Part shown: in pieces, positions 1,276 through 62,289 of the stretch | Numbering within the stretch: the stretch's first letter is position 1 | Layout of the letters: every line of letters starts with the position of its first letter | From: Haloarcula rubripromontorii | GTDB taxonomy: Archaea; Halobacteriota; Halobacteria; Halobacteriales; Haloarculaceae | Direction: 5' to 3' | NCBI RefSeq assembly: GCF_001280425.1 | Contig: NZ_LIUF01000001.1 | Location: forward strand, 414,945-478,944 | Length of the DNA: 64,000 nucleotides | Notes under the pieces: model-generated | Database searches by the model: none | Seen by the model: only the letters and a program-made list of their open reading frames with translations | What the model was told of the DNA's origin: nothing | Program-made: the position numbers and the translations under genes

Positions 1276-1707
1276 TCATTCGGTTTCGAGGGAGACTTCC
1301 CTGTCGGTCTTACGGACCTCGTTTTCGGTTCCGCTGTTCGCTGAGAGAGATTCGGTCTCCAGCAGGCGGTCCAGCCGCCGCTCGAACTCGCTGTCTGTCA
1401 GTTCGCCGCGGGCGTAGCGCTCTCGGAGGTGATCGACCGGGTCCACCGTCGGTTCCGTTGCGTTGGGTGCATCGGCTTCATCCTGTGCTGTCTCATCCGC
1501 CGGGGACTCGATCATCGGCAGTTTCGACCCCAGAAGGGCGACGAGCGGAGCGAGGATGACCCACCCGAGAATGATCGAGACCGGTGCAATCACGTTGCCG
1601 AGGCCGGCCACACCCCCAAGCATGGCGATACCCAGCGAGAGTATCGCGATGGTCGCAACGAGCTTCCATCTCGGGAGGGCGATGGAGGGGAGGTTCATGT
1701 CGTCCAC
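1276..1707 (-). CDS. small membrane protein with SHOCT domain
   Basis: The 143-residue product has two hydrophobic helices at about residues 14-36 and 38-60, then an acidic linker and a SHOCT-type segment at about 89-117 (VDHLRERYARGELTDSEFERRL). SHOCT is a short helical module found at the ends of many prokaryotic membrane proteins and thought to mediate oligomerisation; its role here is unknown. A second ATG three codons in (1698) is an equally good start. It lies immediately downstream of hisS on the same strand and could be cotranscribed. Confidence 0.8.
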   Translation of the reverse strand: MDDMNLPSIALPRWKLVATIAILSLGIAMLGGVAGLGNVIAPVSIILGWVILAPLVALLGSKLPMIESPADETAQDEADAPNATEPTVDPVDHLRERYARGELTDSEFERRLDRLLETESLSANSGTENEVRKTDREVSLETE

Positions 1708-1759
1708 TCAACACGCTGGTCGCAAAAAGCTACTGTCACAATCCGACCGCGAGGTCGCG

Positions 1760-3067
1760 CTACTCCGCGAAGTCCTCGAACGTCGGCCGGTCGTGATCGC
1801 CGGGGAACGCCGAGAGCGGGACGCTCACCTGCTCGCCGTCGTCCATCTCCTTGAGCGTCACCTCGTCGTTTTCGAGGTCCTGCTCGCCGACGATGACGAC
1901 CGTCTCGGCGTTGATGCCGTCGGCGTAGCCCATCTGCGCGCCGAACGAGCGGTCGGCTACGTCGCTCTCGACGACGTGCCCGCGCTCACGCAGCTCCCGT
2001 GCGATGCGGGCCGCGGTCGGACGGGTGTCGCCGACCTGCAGGACGTAGTAGTCCGTCGAGAGTTCCTCGGCGGGCCAGACGCCGGCGCGCTGGCAGAGGA
2101 GTTGGAGCGTGGCGTGGCCGGGCGCGAACCCGACTGCCGGCGTCGGCTGGCCGCCGAAGCCCTCGATGAGATCGTCGTAGCGGCCGCCGCCGAACACCGA
2201 CCGGGAGACCTCGCCCGTCGAGTCGAAGCACTCGAAGACGACGCCGGTGTAGTAGTCAAGCCCGCGTGCGGTCGTCAGCGAGACGGTGAGGTGCTCGCGG
2301 ACGCCGAAGTCCGCAGCCGCATCGAGGACTGCCTGCAGGTTGTCGGTCGCCGCGCGAACGTCCTCGGAGCCGGTGAGGTCCGCGAGCGTTTCGATTTCCT
2401 CTGCGTCGATCTGCAGCATCTCGTCGAATTTGTCGGCCTGTCCGTAGTTGAGTCCCGCCTCGACGAGCGCGTCGAGGTAGTCGTCGTGGTCGACTTTCGC
2501 CCGCTTGTCGACCGCGCGGATCGCCTCGGGCACGTCCACGTCGGCCCCGAACGACTCCAGCACGCCCGCGAGGATATCCCGGTGGGAGACGCGAATCTCG
2601 AAGTCCTCGCCGGTCAGCCCGAGATCGGTGAGCATGTCAACGGCGACGGCCAGAATCTCGGCGTCCGCGGTCGGCTCCGACGACCCGAAGATGTCGACGT
2701 TGGTCTGGTAGAACTCCCGGAACCGGCCCTGCTGGGGTTCCTCGTAGCGCCAGAACGGTCGCGTCGAGACCCATTTGATCGGTTTCGAGAGTTCCTGTTG
2801 CTTGGCGACGAACATCCGCGCGACGGTCGGCGTCAGCTCCGGCGTGAGTGCGACCTCGCGTCTACCCTTGTCCTCGAAGCTGTACAGTTCCTCGACGATC
2901 TCCTCGCCGCTCTTGTCGACGTACATCTCTGTCGGTTCCAGCGCCGGCGTGCCGATCTCTCGGAAGCCATAGCGCTGTGCGACATCTTCCAGCGTGTCCA
3001 TAGCCCACCGCCGAGCCTGCATCTCCTCGGGGTAGAAATCGCGAAAGCCCTTGACGGAGTCGTACAT
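1760..3067 (-). CDS. hisS: histidyl-tRNA synthetase
   Basis: This 435-residue class II synthetase charges tRNA-His. Motif 2 is visible as RPFWRYEEPQQGRFREF, the histidine-binding block as ARGLDYYTGVVFE, and motif 3 begins at GGGRYDDL. The C-terminal 90 residues form the usual anticodon-binding domain. The length is normal for the family and the N-terminus (VKGFRDFYPEE) matches the standard start. No paralogue such as HisZ or other his genes lie nearby. Confidence 0.97.
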   Translation of the reverse strand: MYDSVKGFRDFYPEEMQARRWAMDTLEDVAQRYGFREIGTPALEPTEMYVDKSGEEIVEELYSFEDKGRREVALTPELTPTVARMFVAKQQELSKPIKWVSTRPFWRYEEPQQGRFREFYQTNVDIFGSSEPTADAEILAVAVDMLTDLGLTGEDFEIRVSHRDILAGVLESFGADVDVPEAIRAVDKRAKVDHDDYLDALVEAGLNYGQADKFDEMLQIDAEEIETLADLTGSEDVRAATDNLQAVLDAAADFGVREHLTVSLTTARGLDYYTGVVFECFDSTGEVSRSVFGGGRYDDLIEGFGGQPTPAVGFAPGHATLQLLCQRAGVWPAEELSTDYYVLQVGDTRPTAARIARELRERGHVVESDVADRSFGAQMGYADGINAETVVIVGEQDLENDEVTLKEMDDGEQVSVPLSAFPGDHDRPTFEDFAE

Positions 3068-55980: not shown

Positions 55981-56631
55981 ATGACGAGCAAACAGGCGGT
56001 ACAAGAGGAACTGGTCGACAGCGGCGTCACGGCGGTCCTGCGCGGGATTCCCGAGGAGAAAATGGTCGACGTGGCGACGGCGGTCCACGAGGGCGGCGTC
56101 ACGGCGCTGGAGCTGACAGCCGACGCGAAGCGCTGTTCGGACATGATCGCCGCCGTCGACAAGGCGCTCGACGACACCGACGCCATCATCGGTGCCGGCA
56201 CGGTCATGGACGCCGCCGCCGCCCGCAATGTTATCGAAGCCGGCGCGGAGTTCGTCCTCGCACCGAACCTCAACGAGGACGTCATCGACGTGTGCAACCG
56301 CGAGGGCGTCCTCGCCATCCCCGGCGTCATGACGCCGACGGAGGCCGCCGACGCGATGGAAGCGGGCGCGGACATCCTGAAGATGTTCCCCGCCTCGACT
56401 GTCGGCCCGGGCCACATCGGCGCGCTGCAGGGGCCGCTTGGCGACGTGCCTATTATGCCGACCGGCGGCGTCTCCGTCGACAACGTCGAAGAGTACTTCA
56501 ACGCTGGCGCGGTCGCCGTCGGCGCAGGCTCGGCACTGGTCAACTACGAAGCCATCGAAAACGACGACATGGACGGTGTCCGCGAACAGGCCGCGGCATT
56601 CGTCGACGCCGTCGAGGCCGCCCGAGAGTAG
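55981..56631 (+). CDS. KDPG/KHG aldolase (class I, bacterial type)
   Basis: The 216-residue TIM-barrel enzyme cleaves 2-keto-3-deoxy-6-phosphogluconate to pyruvate and glyceraldehyde-3-phosphate. Family motifs are the first-strand Arg (VTAVLRGIPEE), the Glu in VTALELTAD, the Schiff-base Lys in ILKMFPASTVGP and the phosphate loop MPTGGVSVDN. This fits the semi-phosphorylative Entner-Doudoroff route of haloarchaea. KDG kinase is not in the window. Confidence 0.92.
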   Translation: MTSKQAVQEELVDSGVTAVLRGIPEEKMVDVATAVHEGGVTALELTADAKRCSDMIAAVDKALDDTDAIIGAGTVMDAAAARNVIEAGAEFVLAPNLNEDVIDVCNREGVLAIPGVMTPTEAADAMEAGADILKMFPASTVGPGHIGALQGPLGDVPIMPTGGVSVDNVEEYFNAGAVAVGAGSALVNYEAIENDDMDGVREQAAAFVDAVEAARE

Positions 56632-56677: not shown

Positions 56678-57169
56678 TTATCCGCCGGTTTCGTTGGCGG
56701 TCGTTTCGTTGCCAGTCTCGTTTCCGGCCGTGTCGGTCTCGTTACCGGGCAGACCGGTTTCGTTGCCCGGAATATCTGTCTCGTTGCCAGGTCGTTCAGT
56801 TTCGTTATCCGGCAGTCCGGTCTCGTTGCCTGGCAAGTCTGTTGCGTTGCCCGGACCTTCAGTATCGTTGCCGGGTATGTCGGTTTCGCTGTCCGGCATC
56901 CCGGTCTCGTTTTCGTCGAATTCCGTCTGCGTATCCATTCCGGTTTCGCCCTCGGTGTCGGACTCAGTCTCCATCGCCGGTTCTGTGTCGTCTTCCGTCA
57001 TCGCGTCAGTCTCTGCCGCCGTGGGCGTACTCGGGGCTTCGGCACCTCCGCCGTCAGTTTCCATCGTGGCGTTACCGCCACTACCGCCAGTGTCACTACA
57101 GCCAGCGAGCGCTACGAGTGCGCCGCCTGCGATTTTGAGAACGTTTCGTCGAGCTGTGAGTCGTCCCAT
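56678..57169 (-). CDS. sequon-rich repetitive lipoprotein
   Basis: The 163-residue product has a Tat-like signal (TARRNVLKIAGGALVALAGC) with lipobox Cys24. The rest is low complexity: Thr/Glu/Asp-rich, then degenerate repeats of the form (I/L)PGNETD/G at about 98-155. About twelve N-x-T sequons occur in the mature protein, so heavy N-glycosylation is likely in an organism that glycosylates surface proteins. It may act as a mucin-like surface stalk. No enzyme domain is visible. Confidence 0.82.
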   Translation of the reverse strand: MGRLTARRNVLKIAGGALVALAGCSDTGGSGGNATMETDGGGAEAPSTPTAAETDAMTEDDTEPAMETESDTEGETGMDTQTEFDENETGMPDSETDIPGNDTEGPGNATDLPGNETGLPDNETERPGNETDIPGNETGLPGNETDTAGNETGNETTANETGG

Positions 57170-58052
57170 AGCGTTTGCCCGAAGACCACAAGGGCAGTTT
57201 ATGAATGACCTGCTAAGCGTCTGACGGAGAGCCAACAGAACGAATTAGCCACATCCGAAGGTGGATCGACTCACAAAACAGCCGTAAACAGTCTGTGTCA
57301 GACCATGATTCGTCCGAACCCAGTATTTCGACCGGTCCACCGGGGTTTCTGGCCTCGATTTCCCAGACATTGACGTGTCGCGGTGTTGCTCGATACCCGG
57401 CTTGTACCGGTACACACTGTTCCCGAGCGGTTATCGAGCGCATAGGTATCTGCGCCCGAGGACATGCCGGTCTGTCCTGTACTGTGATCAGACAGCCGCG
57501 CAGCGGTCAGAACCCACTCAGTCGCCGTTTAGTAACACAATAACGCGTGGTTCCAGTGGTCAGTACCTGCAGCCGTCCCACACCTGCGGGAACTCCCATC
57601 GCCGCAGCTCTCGTCACCGGCAACTGAAACAGCGGGCAACAGCTCGTCCCCGCCAGTTAGCTATGCTCGTCCACAGGCAGAGGACGATCATCCGGAGACG
57701 GCCCGATGAGTTCCGGTGCGACATCAGCCGGCGCGGCTTGCCGACAGTAGCGTCTGTCAGACATCGCTATTTCCCCCGTTCACGACAGCGCCGGAAACGT
57801 CACGTCGGTCGATTGGTTGCATTGGTGTCACGCTACGATGGTGTGTACGTCAGAGATACACACCGAGTGACTTCAGCGCGCTCCTGTCGGCGAAAACGAC
57901 CACACCTCCGCTTATGTGGTGATATTTGCCGCATCGTGCGCAGTGCGTTCTCGGCACAAGAGTGTGACCGCTCCGGATTCTCCACGAACAGGGTGGACAA
58001 TAGGGACACACAGCCCAGATATGTCGGCAACACTAGCCGCGAAGTCCGAGGC
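57170..58052. other. 880-base stretch with no clear gene
   Basis: No open frame here has convincing composition: third-position G+C is low in the best ones, and none resembles a known family. The stretch is less GC-rich in places than its neighbours. Two perfect inverted repeats stand out: 57840-57864 (GGTGTGTA/TACACACC, 9-base loop) and 57899-57920 (ACCACA/TGTGGT). They might mark the end of the ftsY message on the minus strand, or part of an RNA. The lipoprotein promoter is also inside this stretch. Confidence 0.4.
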
Positions 58053-59345
58053 CTACTCGCCGATGAGACTGTCGACGATTTCCTCGGGGTCGAACGGTTC
58101 GAGGTCGTCGTAGTCCTGGCCGGTCCCCAAGAAGAGAATTGGCTTGCCGGTGACGTGGGCGACGGAGATAGCCGCACCGCCCTGCGGGTCGGCATCAGCT
58201 TTCGTCAGGATTGCCCCGTCGATCTCGGCCGCGTCGTTGAATTCGCGCGCCCGATTGACGGCATCCTGCCCCGCGACCGCCTCGTCCACGAACAGCGTCA
58301 TGTCGGGGTCGATGTTGCGGTCGATCTTCGCCAGCTGGGCCATCAGGTCATCGGAGGTGTGGAGTCGACCGGCTGTATCGCCGAGCACCACGTCGATATC
58401 GTTGGCCTTGGCGTACTCGACGGCGTCGTAGACAACCGCCGTCGGGTCCGACCCCTGCTCGTGGGTGATGATCTTCTTGTCGAGGTTCTCGGCGTGTTTC
58501 TCGAGTTGCTCGTTCGCGCCGGCGCGGTAGGTGTCGCCGTTGGCGAGCACCGTCGAGAGTCCACGGTCCTCGAAGTACTGCGCGAGTTTCGCTATCGAGG
58601 TCGTCTTCCCGACGCCGTTGACGCCGGTGAACACGATGGTGACGGGCTTGTCCGCCTGCTGGACGCGCTCGTCGAAGTCGAACTGGCCGACGTTGATGAC
58701 GTCGTACAGCGACTCGCGGAGTGCGTCCCGGACGAGGTTCCCCGTGCTGGAGAGCCGGCGGCGGGTCTGGCCCGTGAGGTTCTCCTTGACGCCGTCGAGG
58801 ATTTCGTTGGCGACGCTCATCTCCACGTCGCTCGACAGCAACGCCAGTTCGAGGTCGTCGAGGTGGCTTTGCAGGTCCTCCTCCTCGATGACCGTCTTTC
58901 CGGTTGCCATGAGCTTCGCCTTCGCGGCGAGGCCGCGGCCACCGTCGTCGCCTTCCTCAGACTCCGAATCGGCTTCGGACGACGAGTCCTTCTCGGTCGC
59001 CGCGGCGGTGTCCGACTGTGACTCGCTGTCGGGGACCGCGTCCGTGTCTTCAACTGCCGTAGCCGACGCTGTGGCTGACTCATCTGTCGCCACAGAGTCC
59101 GCCGCTGGCGGTTCAGCGTCAGCCTGTTGCTGGTCGGTTTCGGCTGTCGTTTCCGCCACTCGGGTGTCGTCCTCGGACGGCTGTGCGTCCGCTGCGGGCT
59201 CGGATTCAGTCACTTCATCGGCAGGCACTTCCCCGTCTGCCTCGTCGGCGTCCGGTTCGTCCTCCGCTTCGAGCGCGTCGTCGTCGACATCTTCCTCGAC
59301 GTCGCTCGTGAACCCGCTGAGTTTGTCCTTCAGTCCGTCGAACAT
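58053..59345 (-). CDS. ftsY: signal recognition particle receptor FtsY
   Basis: The 430-residue GTPase is the SRP receptor. It has a highly acidic, Ala/Thr-rich N-terminal region (about 12-120) as usual in halophiles, an N domain, and a G domain with GVNGVGKTTSIAKLA, DTAGRLHTSDD and TKADADPQGGAA. The C-terminus GTGQDYDDLEPFDPEEIVDS is the family end. It is 7 bases downstream of pfdA. Confidence 0.97.
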   Translation of the reverse strand: MFDGLKDKLSGFTSDVEEDVDDDALEAEDEPDADEADGEVPADEVTESEPAADAQPSEDDTRVAETTAETDQQQADAEPPAADSVATDESATASATAVEDTDAVPDSESQSDTAAATEKDSSSEADSESEEGDDGGRGLAAKAKLMATGKTVIEEEDLQSHLDDLELALLSSDVEMSVANEILDGVKENLTGQTRRRLSSTGNLVRDALRESLYDVINVGQFDFDERVQQADKPVTIVFTGVNGVGKTTSIAKLAQYFEDRGLSTVLANGDTYRAGANEQLEKHAENLDKKIITHEQGSDPTAVVYDAVEYAKANDIDVVLGDTAGRLHTSDDLMAQLAKIDRNIDPDMTLFVDEAVAGQDAVNRAREFNDAAEIDGAILTKADADPQGGAAISVAHVTGKPILFLGTGQDYDDLEPFDPEEIVDSLIGE

Positions 59346-61773: not shown

Positions 61774-62289
61774 ATGAAGCGCCGGAGATTCCTCCAGACA
61801 ATGGGTGTCGGTGCAACAGCCGTCGGCTCTGGTTGCATGGGTGGTGGCGGCGAAGTCGTCGTCAGTGTGAAGCAGGATGTCAGAGTCGAGCCACACGAGG
61901 CGTGGATAAAAGAGCGGATTCCGGACGTATCTGACCCCGGCGGTGAGTTGCAGTATATTGTCAAGTCTGAAACCCCGTTCAACGTGTACTTCTTCACTGA
62001 CCGTGCGCAGTTCAAGCAGTACGATGCGTATATCAAGGGTCGAGAGCCGGACGAGACACCGCCGGGGAACCCCAAATTCAGCCAGACAGCAGTCCAGCCA
62101 AAGGGGTCGGATATCTATCAGGCGTCGACAGACAACGGCGGCGCGCGGGAGTCACTTGACGAGCCCGGGCCATACTTTTTCGCCGTCGACCACTCGAACT
62201 ACCGGATGGAGACCCGGGTCGACGACTACGACGACCCGCTAAAGGCCTTCGTCGATCTCACCGTCATCCGGAGCAAGCTCCCCTTCTAG
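61774..62289 (+). CDS. Tat-exported lipoprotein of unknown function
   Basis: The 171-residue protein begins MKRRRFLQTMGVGATAVGSG with a twin-arginine motif (RRRFLQ) and a Cys right after (SGCMGGGG, Cys21), so it is exported folded and lipid-anchored. The mature part has alternating strands and blocks such as PFNVYFFTDRAQFKQYDAYI and GPYFFAVDHSNYRMETRVDD, which look like a compact beta domain. I do not recognise the family. The 3' end overlaps the convergent ZIP gene by four bases. Confidence 0.78.
   Translation: MKRRRFLQTMGVGATAVGSGCMGGGGEVVVSVKQDVRVEPHEAWIKERIPDVSDPGGELQYIVKSETPFNVYFFTDRAQFKQYDAYIKGREPDETPPGNPKFSQTAVQPKGSDIYQASTDNGGARESLDEPGPYFFAVDHSNYRMETRVDDYDDPLKAFVDLTVIRSKLPF

Follow-up and report, generated by a model that had tools for sequence, protein, structure and literature searches.

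The gene lying between a KDPG/KHG-aldolase-family gene and ftsY in Haloarcula rubripromontorii encodes a putative lipoprotein whose tail is densely packed with N-x-T sequons. We consider it moderately probable that one Haloarcula clade lost the folded domain of an older lipoprotein and kept a lipid-anchored, disordered chain, glycosylated by AglB, as an N-glycan carrier or brush. From the comparative evidence below we infer that the protein would be expressed and lipidated, that glycans would occupy its sequons and form a brush, and by which route the domain may have been lost. The whole stretch of DNA analysed, 64,000 nucleotides in length, is called the window here, and the interval between the aldolase gene and ftsY is called the slot. 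The features concerned are as follows.

55981..56631, plus strand: gene of the KDPG/KHG aldolase family (PF01081), the convergent neighbour and one border of the slot
56678..57169, minus strand: coding sequence of the sequon-tail lipoprotein, 163 aa, with ATG at 57169 and stop at 56678-56680; orthologues in 15 genomes
56687..56911, minus strand: sequon tail, residues 87-161, with 11 N-x-T sequons and a period of mostly 7 residues
56912..57097, minus strand: acidic Thr/Glu/Asp/Gly stem, residues 25-86, with a single sequon (N33)
57098..57109, minus strand: lipobox LAGC, residues 21-24, with Cys24 as predicted lipid anchor; kept in 15/15 orthologues
57101..57169, minus strand: predicted Tat signal peptide, residues 1-23 (MGRLTARRNVLKIAGGALVALAG), with twin arginine and hydrophobic stretch recognized by eye
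57197..57217, minus strand: promoter-like box CTTAGCAGGTCATTCATAAAC (TATA-like TTCATAAA), conserved, 27 bases upstream of the ATG
58053..59345, minus strand: FtsY (SRP54-type GTPase, PF00448), the upstream neighbour and other border of the slot

The first-pass annotation had located the gene correctly at 56678-57169 without giving its strand, which is minus. A long plus-strand frame over the region was rejected as an antisense by-product, because it is the minus-strand frame that has a signal, a promoter box and orthologues. The protein has the short N-terminal twin-arginine signal ARRNVLKIAGGALVALAGC (ARRNV in the window protein, RR by eye in 15/15 orthologues) and a lipobox in which a small residue precedes the invariant Cys. 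The same combination of twin-arginine signal and lipobox with Gly or Ala before Cys is seen in the haloarchaeal Tat lipoproteins described in excerpts of PMC2945643, whose anchoring in the membrane by lipid is shown or predicted there; the window protein differs from them in having no folded domain after the linker, just a stem and a sequon tail. The lipid anchor that had been proposed at first is thus backed by the signal and the LAGC lipobox of all 15 orthologues, lipidation itself being a prediction. Judged from its sequence, the protein would be secreted through Tat, lipidated at Cys24 and devoid of a folded domain.

The mature part comprises 140 residues, 38 acidic and one basic. Thr, Glu, Asp, Gly and Pro make up 99 of them (71%, or 79% with Asn), so that these residues dominate, as had been claimed, but fall short of being nearly the whole protein. 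AlphaFold2 reported no structural elements and a mean pLDDT of 49, a score as expected for a disordered chain that the shallow alignment of 11 rows could also cause. Searches with the 163-aa protein gave no Pfam match up to E 0.1, no PDB-sequence or NCBIfam match, no confirmed relative in the related-locus search and no match in the plasmid search. The Pfam model of DUF4397 (PF14344), a domain that becomes important below, is likewise unmatched.

Under the rule N-x(not P)-S/T the protein has exactly 12 sequons, all N-x-T, in agreement with the earlier count of about twelve. Their Asn residues are N33, 87, 101, 108, 115, 122, 129, 136, 143, 150, 154 and 159; eleven of the twelve fall in the last 77 residues, and every Asn of the mature part (12/12) belongs to a sequon. 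Shuffled versions of the mature part held 2.5 sequons on average and 8 at most, and none of 5000 reached 12. The tail is built of short units of the PGNETxx type, with one unit, PDSETDI, that has no sequon, and the claim that every repeat offers one was therefore overstated. The array is also visible in the DNA, where Tandem Repeats Finder gave periods of 21, 42, 63 and 84 nt with 67-77% matches. Proteins that are exported and carry sequons above chance are the expected AglB-dependent N-glycoproteins; the excess of sequons is found here, and export is predicted.

Orthologues with 9-15 sequons each occur in 14 further genomes, and in all 15 Haloarcula genomes the frame is open and the gene lies between the aldolase gene and ftsY (the order with ftsY was seen for all 15, 4 + 11). 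The 15 genomes form a single clade with support of 100/100 on a tree of seven neighbouring proteins, which is rooted at its midpoint and in which G014 and G020 have 22% of the columns. Seven of the orthologues are identical to proteins in the records of H. sebkhae, H. vallismortis, H. amylolytica, H. japonica, H. argentinensis, H. mannanilytica and H. salina, which were reached through the neighbouring aldolase. The aldolase was found in 31 of the 32 genus genomes searched, and outside the clade the slot is in other states. In six genomes (G002, G008, G010, G022, G024 and G044) it is occupied by a DUF4397 lipoprotein of about 300 residues, whose N-terminus is similar to that of the sequon-tail protein. 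These DUF4397 slot proteins sit on two separate branches of the tree, and the five of full length, that of G022 not having been extracted, have 0-1 sequons. G015 has a form of 106 residues with three sequons; 3 of its 5 Asn lie in sequons, a number reached by 181 of 5000 shuffles, and this short form was left out of the 15-genome counts, the constraint statistics and the pair counts. No slot lipoprotein was found in five genus genomes (G011, G013, G018, G045 and G046), and in G014 and G020 ftsY is not near and no lipoprotein was found by the aldolase. G007, an incomplete genome without an aldolase match, has its DUF4397 lipoprotein on a 3.2-kb contig and was kept outside this comparison of slots. 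In Halosimplex, a pattern search beside the aldolase gave a lipoprotein in 0 of 4 loci.

The remaining slot state, in G001 and G041, is a lipoprotein of about 100 residues with TETGM repeats and no sequons. These TETGM-repeat lipoproteins (L072 4907-5206, L070 5087-5383), with a domainless tail and no sugar sites, provide a natural control.

Other sequences in and near the slot were also recorded. The 883 bp between the lipoprotein gene and ftsY (57170-58052) contain no clear gene; they are 73-83% identical over nearly their full length in nine relatives and partially in others. A 25-residue match (64%) within them to the start of a protein encoded there in G023 suggests that the interval is partly a remnant of lost genes. 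No Rfam family matched at gathering score between 50000 and 64000. The slot regions of G023 and G001 (L082 2748-6144; L072 7142-10784) have two extra genes, which by eye resemble a nitrite/sulfite reductase and a 4Fe-4S protein and are not at this place in the window. A lipobox-type protein of 171 aa without Pfam matches up to E 0.1 is encoded near the slot at 61774-62289, in the company of genes for eIF-6 and a ZIP transporter (PF02535), and recurs in 25 of the 31 regions read.

A DUF4397 lipoprotein of this locus that lost its domain is the likely ancestor of the sequon-tail protein, as suggested by profile and reverse matches, by place and orientation, and by the similar N-termini. Eleven of the 15 orthologues make up alignment A1. 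A profile of 11 orthologues matched 27 of 146 family genomes at E <= 1e-8, the best 25 candidates per genome being scored for many genomes; the matched genomes are the 15 with the sequon-tail protein, eight with a slot protein only (six DUF4397, two TETGM), G007 and three outside the genus. With the same scoring, the slot protein was the sole match at that threshold in 8 of the 9 non-NET genomes with a slot lipoprotein, and the short form of G015 was unmatched at E 1e-8; G023 gave two extra matches. In the reverse search, with the first 79 residues of the DUF4397 protein of G008 as query, the sequon-tail protein ranked first in 7 of 8 genomes; in the eighth, G023, it came fourth, behind three others. 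The AlphaFold2 model of a DUF4397 slot protein, made with five alignment rows, had a mean pLDDT of 37 and was of too low quality for interpretation. According to a table note in PMC7349177, the alginate acetylation protein AlgF contains DUF4397. As the folded domain was lost, the low-complexity linker, or a Thr-rich C-terminal tail, would have filled with sequons in this one clade.

It might also be that an unrelated lipoprotein took over the slot and that the NET protein does not derive from a DUF4397 protein at all, an alternative that concerns origin only and is compatible with the glycan-brush function. Haloarchaeal lipoproteins have similar signal peptides and N-termini, which weakens the case for domain loss; moreover, no shared folded part is left, and the reverse search in G023 ranks other proteins first. 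However, the sole profile matches, the best reverse matches and the common place and orientation given above speak against a take-over, which we regard as fairly unlikely. Because the tree has a midpoint root, the DUF4397 form is a presumed ancestor.

The constraint on Asn and Thr bears on what the tail is for. Across the 15 genomes, sequons account for 186 of 190 Asn; their third residue is Thr in 185 cases and Ser in one. Over all aligned pairs of the 15 orthologues, N and T of the repeat unit have pN values of 0.038 and 0.026, and the other unit positions 0.098 at x, 0.179 at -1, 0.219 at -2, 0.292 at +3 and 0.363 at -3. Silent differences are common at N and T (pS 0.40 and 0.53, respectively), and all four Thr codons are in use at the sequon Thr. 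The repeat alignment is biased toward pairing NET with NET, and counts from pairs of genomes are less prone to this bias than all-pairs pN. In five sister pairs the ratio of amino-acid to silent changes is 13:27 at N and T versus 77:60 elsewhere (Fisher p 0.011). One of these pairs, G016/G023, has repeats of differing period that align badly, and 11 of its 31 N/T positions differ. Four closely related pairs, among them two with a short branch in common, gave 1:10 versus 23:15 (p 0.005), and another set of five pairs gave 2:15 versus 31:24 (p 0.002). Branches are partly shared in these last two sets, and are not shared by the five sister pairs on the neighbour-protein tree.

Sequon density stays at 7.3-9.5 per 100 residues in 15/15 orthologues and is kept without a regular 7-residue period; for example, the spacing is 4-7 in G023, and 6-7 with one gap of 15 in G004. 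The conservation of N and T, together with a stable density where the period is irregular, points to selection on the N-x-T sites rather than on the repeat itself. The remaining tail is constrained less strongly (dN/dS 0.33), suggesting that the acidic chain matters too. DNA-level slippage by itself was rejected as the cause of the array, in that Asn and Thr are retained while silent sites vary.

One alternative is an acidic disordered tether without glycans, in which the sequons are a by-product of the Gly/Thr/Glu linker composition of halophiles and of repeat duplication. It would account for the Thr/Glu/Gly-rich, almost sequon-free linkers seen in DUF4397 slot proteins, for the TETGM forms of G001 and G041, which retain a tail with none, and for the somewhat constrained spacer residues. 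It does not readily explain why nearly every Asn lies in a sequon, why constraint is stronger at N and T than elsewhere in the unit, or why sequon density is maintained when the period changes, and we judge the glycan-free tether to be unlikely.

The promoter-like box bears on the question of decay. In 15/15 orthologues it stands exactly 27 bases from the ATG and deviates by one mismatch at most, and it would suit a TATA-type promoter of a leaderless transcript; at the short form of G015 it is not found (11 mismatches). If the gene were a functionless remnant of a decayed DUF4397 lipoprotein, with a tail produced by DNA-level repeat slippage, then the tandem repeat, the DUF4397 proteins in the slot of six genomes outside the clade and the five genus genomes in which no slot lipoprotein was found would be easily understood. 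The conserved box, the open frame in 15/15 and the dN/dS values of signal, stem and tail, each under 1, make this highly improbable, and the combination of kept amino acids with diverged silent sites is unexpected under slippage alone.

The glycosylation machinery presumed by the preferred reading, a lipid-anchored N-glycan carrier, is encoded in the genome: AglB (G000:C5) scores 922 bits against TIGR04154, with a cut-off of 450, and has the WWDYG motif. STT3-family matches were found in 31 of 32 genus genomes, and the presence of AglB can therefore not be correlated with that of the tail. A second STT3-like protein of 777 aa is encoded in the same genome outside the window (L143 601-2934), with 135 bits to TIGR04154, below the cut-off of 450, and such a weaker match recurs in most genus genomes.

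In the proposed mechanism, Tat would export the lipoprotein, and lipidation of Cys24 would anchor it in the membrane, from which an acidic disordered chain of about 140 residues would extend into the gap below the S-layer or through the layer itself. The existence of a pseudo-periplasmic space under the S-layer is described in an excerpt of PMC8640222. AglB would then glycosylate many of the N-x-T sites, spaced about every 7 residues, and so build at the membrane face a brush or spacer of glycans that is hydrated and negatively charged. Glycosylation at many sites is suggested by the constraint on N-x-T, and the brush or spacer function by the disorder, the charge and the anchoring. A conserved N-x-T need not be occupied, and glycans spaced by 4-7 residues may be mutually exclusive. 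In addition, the sequon x is Glu at 158 of the 186 sites of the 15 genomes, and Glu at this position may lower glycosylation efficiency, as known from eukaryotic work.

Mucins, with their PTS domains, are extended, repeat-rich, disordered and densely glycosylated, and the window protein resembles them in being extended, repeat-rich, disordered and potentially densely glycosylated. It differs in having N-x-T instead of Ser/Thr clusters. Mucin or PTS domains are recognized by Ser+Thr above about 40% and Pro above 5%; with Ser+Thr at 23%, though Pro at 8%, the protein does not belong to them by composition, and the "mucin-like" of the first-pass annotation was a poor label. A mucin in the strict sense, with O-glycosylated Thr and incidental N-x-T, is another alternative. 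The mature part has 27 Thr among its 140 residues, and the Thr-rich membrane-proximal part of haloarchaeal S-layer glycoproteins carries O-linked sugars. O-glycopeptide candidates from Tat lipobox proteins of Haloferax volcanii appear in excerpts of PMC8241124. The low Ser+Thr content and the joint retention of Asn and of the Thr at its +2 position make a strict mucin very unlikely.

Dense N-glycosylation, as first proposed, stands as a prediction that is backed indirectly, by the constraint on N and T, by the encoded AglB and by the N-glycosylated lipobox proteins known in Hfx. volcanii. Excerpts of PMC8241124 describe 45 N-glycoproteins in that organism, several lipobox proteins among them, with 19 confirmed sites in the largest case and with detection improved by GluC. 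The window protein would share with them export and the modification of N-x-S/T sites by AglB, both predicted here. However, the proteins in the rows listed have 1-5 sites each and are larger or uncharacterised, whereas the window protein has 12 potential sites in 140 residues. The DUF4397 lipoproteins of the same slot, which are alike in place, orientation, Tat/lipobox N-terminus and Thr/Glu linker, differ in having the domain and hardly any sequons.

NET arrays are not confined to this gene. Within the order, three NET codons at 7-residue spacing turned up in 61 of 392 genomes; 14 of these carry this gene, and the reversed control pattern had no match among the matches listed; G004 is the fifteenth genome with the gene and has no NET match at that spacing. 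Among 30 NET-array loci fetched, 14 are this gene and 16 are others, with frames assigned by reading and Pfam/NCBIfam used for some. Ten of the 16 (L098, L099, L101, L110, L113, L120, L122, L123, L125 and L126) are by eye larger secreted or surface proteins in which the array is a linker or tail. L097 and L118 are DUF4397 proteins with a NET stretch, L118 being a lipoprotein outside the genus with a NET linker; the frame of L124 is ambiguous. Two loci encode tail-only lipoproteins in another genus of the same family (L119 1488-1976 and L121 1437-1901, with 10 and 9 sequons). The NET array is thus a recurrent haloarchaeal linker, and the array-only lipoprotein is its notable variant. The earlier remark that such a protein would be unusual in an archaeon does not apply to the arrays, which are not rare in the order, but does apply to lipoproteins made of stem and array only, which account for 2 of the 16 fetched loci outside this gene.

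The last of the 16 loci, L100, is an AglB of another haloarchaeal family (1386-3050; AglB core and AglB_L1, with WWDYG), with a NET sequon array near its C-terminus, after the AglB domains. Its own tail may be among the substrates of this transferase; for Hfx. volcanii, excerpts of PMC8241124 indicate that AglB carries N-glycans.

The tail-only lipoproteins of L119 and L121 are like the window protein in having a twin arginine, a lipobox, a TETE stem, a NET tail and no Pfam or NCBIfam match. They differ in belonging to another genus, in having a signal peptide and repeat of their own and in being unmatched by the orthologue profile at E 1e-8, and they probably represent an independent, convergent origin of the same design. 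At the level of titles and abstract starts, no description of such a protein was found in the literature, and the excerpts of PMC8241124, PMC2945643, PMC8640222 and PMC7349177 do not treat the sequon-tail protein.

Taken more broadly, these proteins may belong to a haloarchaeal class of domainless, lipid-anchored "N-glycan brush" lipoproteins, selected mainly for the density of AglB sites, which arose by domain loss and linker filling in the present Haloarcula clade and, it seems, anew in G015 and the other genus (L119, L121). We advance this only tentatively, as an N-linked functional counterpart of mucins under the S-layer. If true, archaea would have a protein to which N-glycan sites could be added, and from which they could be removed, one by one without harm to a fold. 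It would give a direct route to the role of N-glycans at the archaeal surface and to the question of how closely AglB places them, and a way to ask whether the region between archaeal membrane and S-layer contains a glycan brush. For Haloarcula, the gene documents a lipoprotein that probably lost its domain yet kept, under selection, its sugar-bearing linker.
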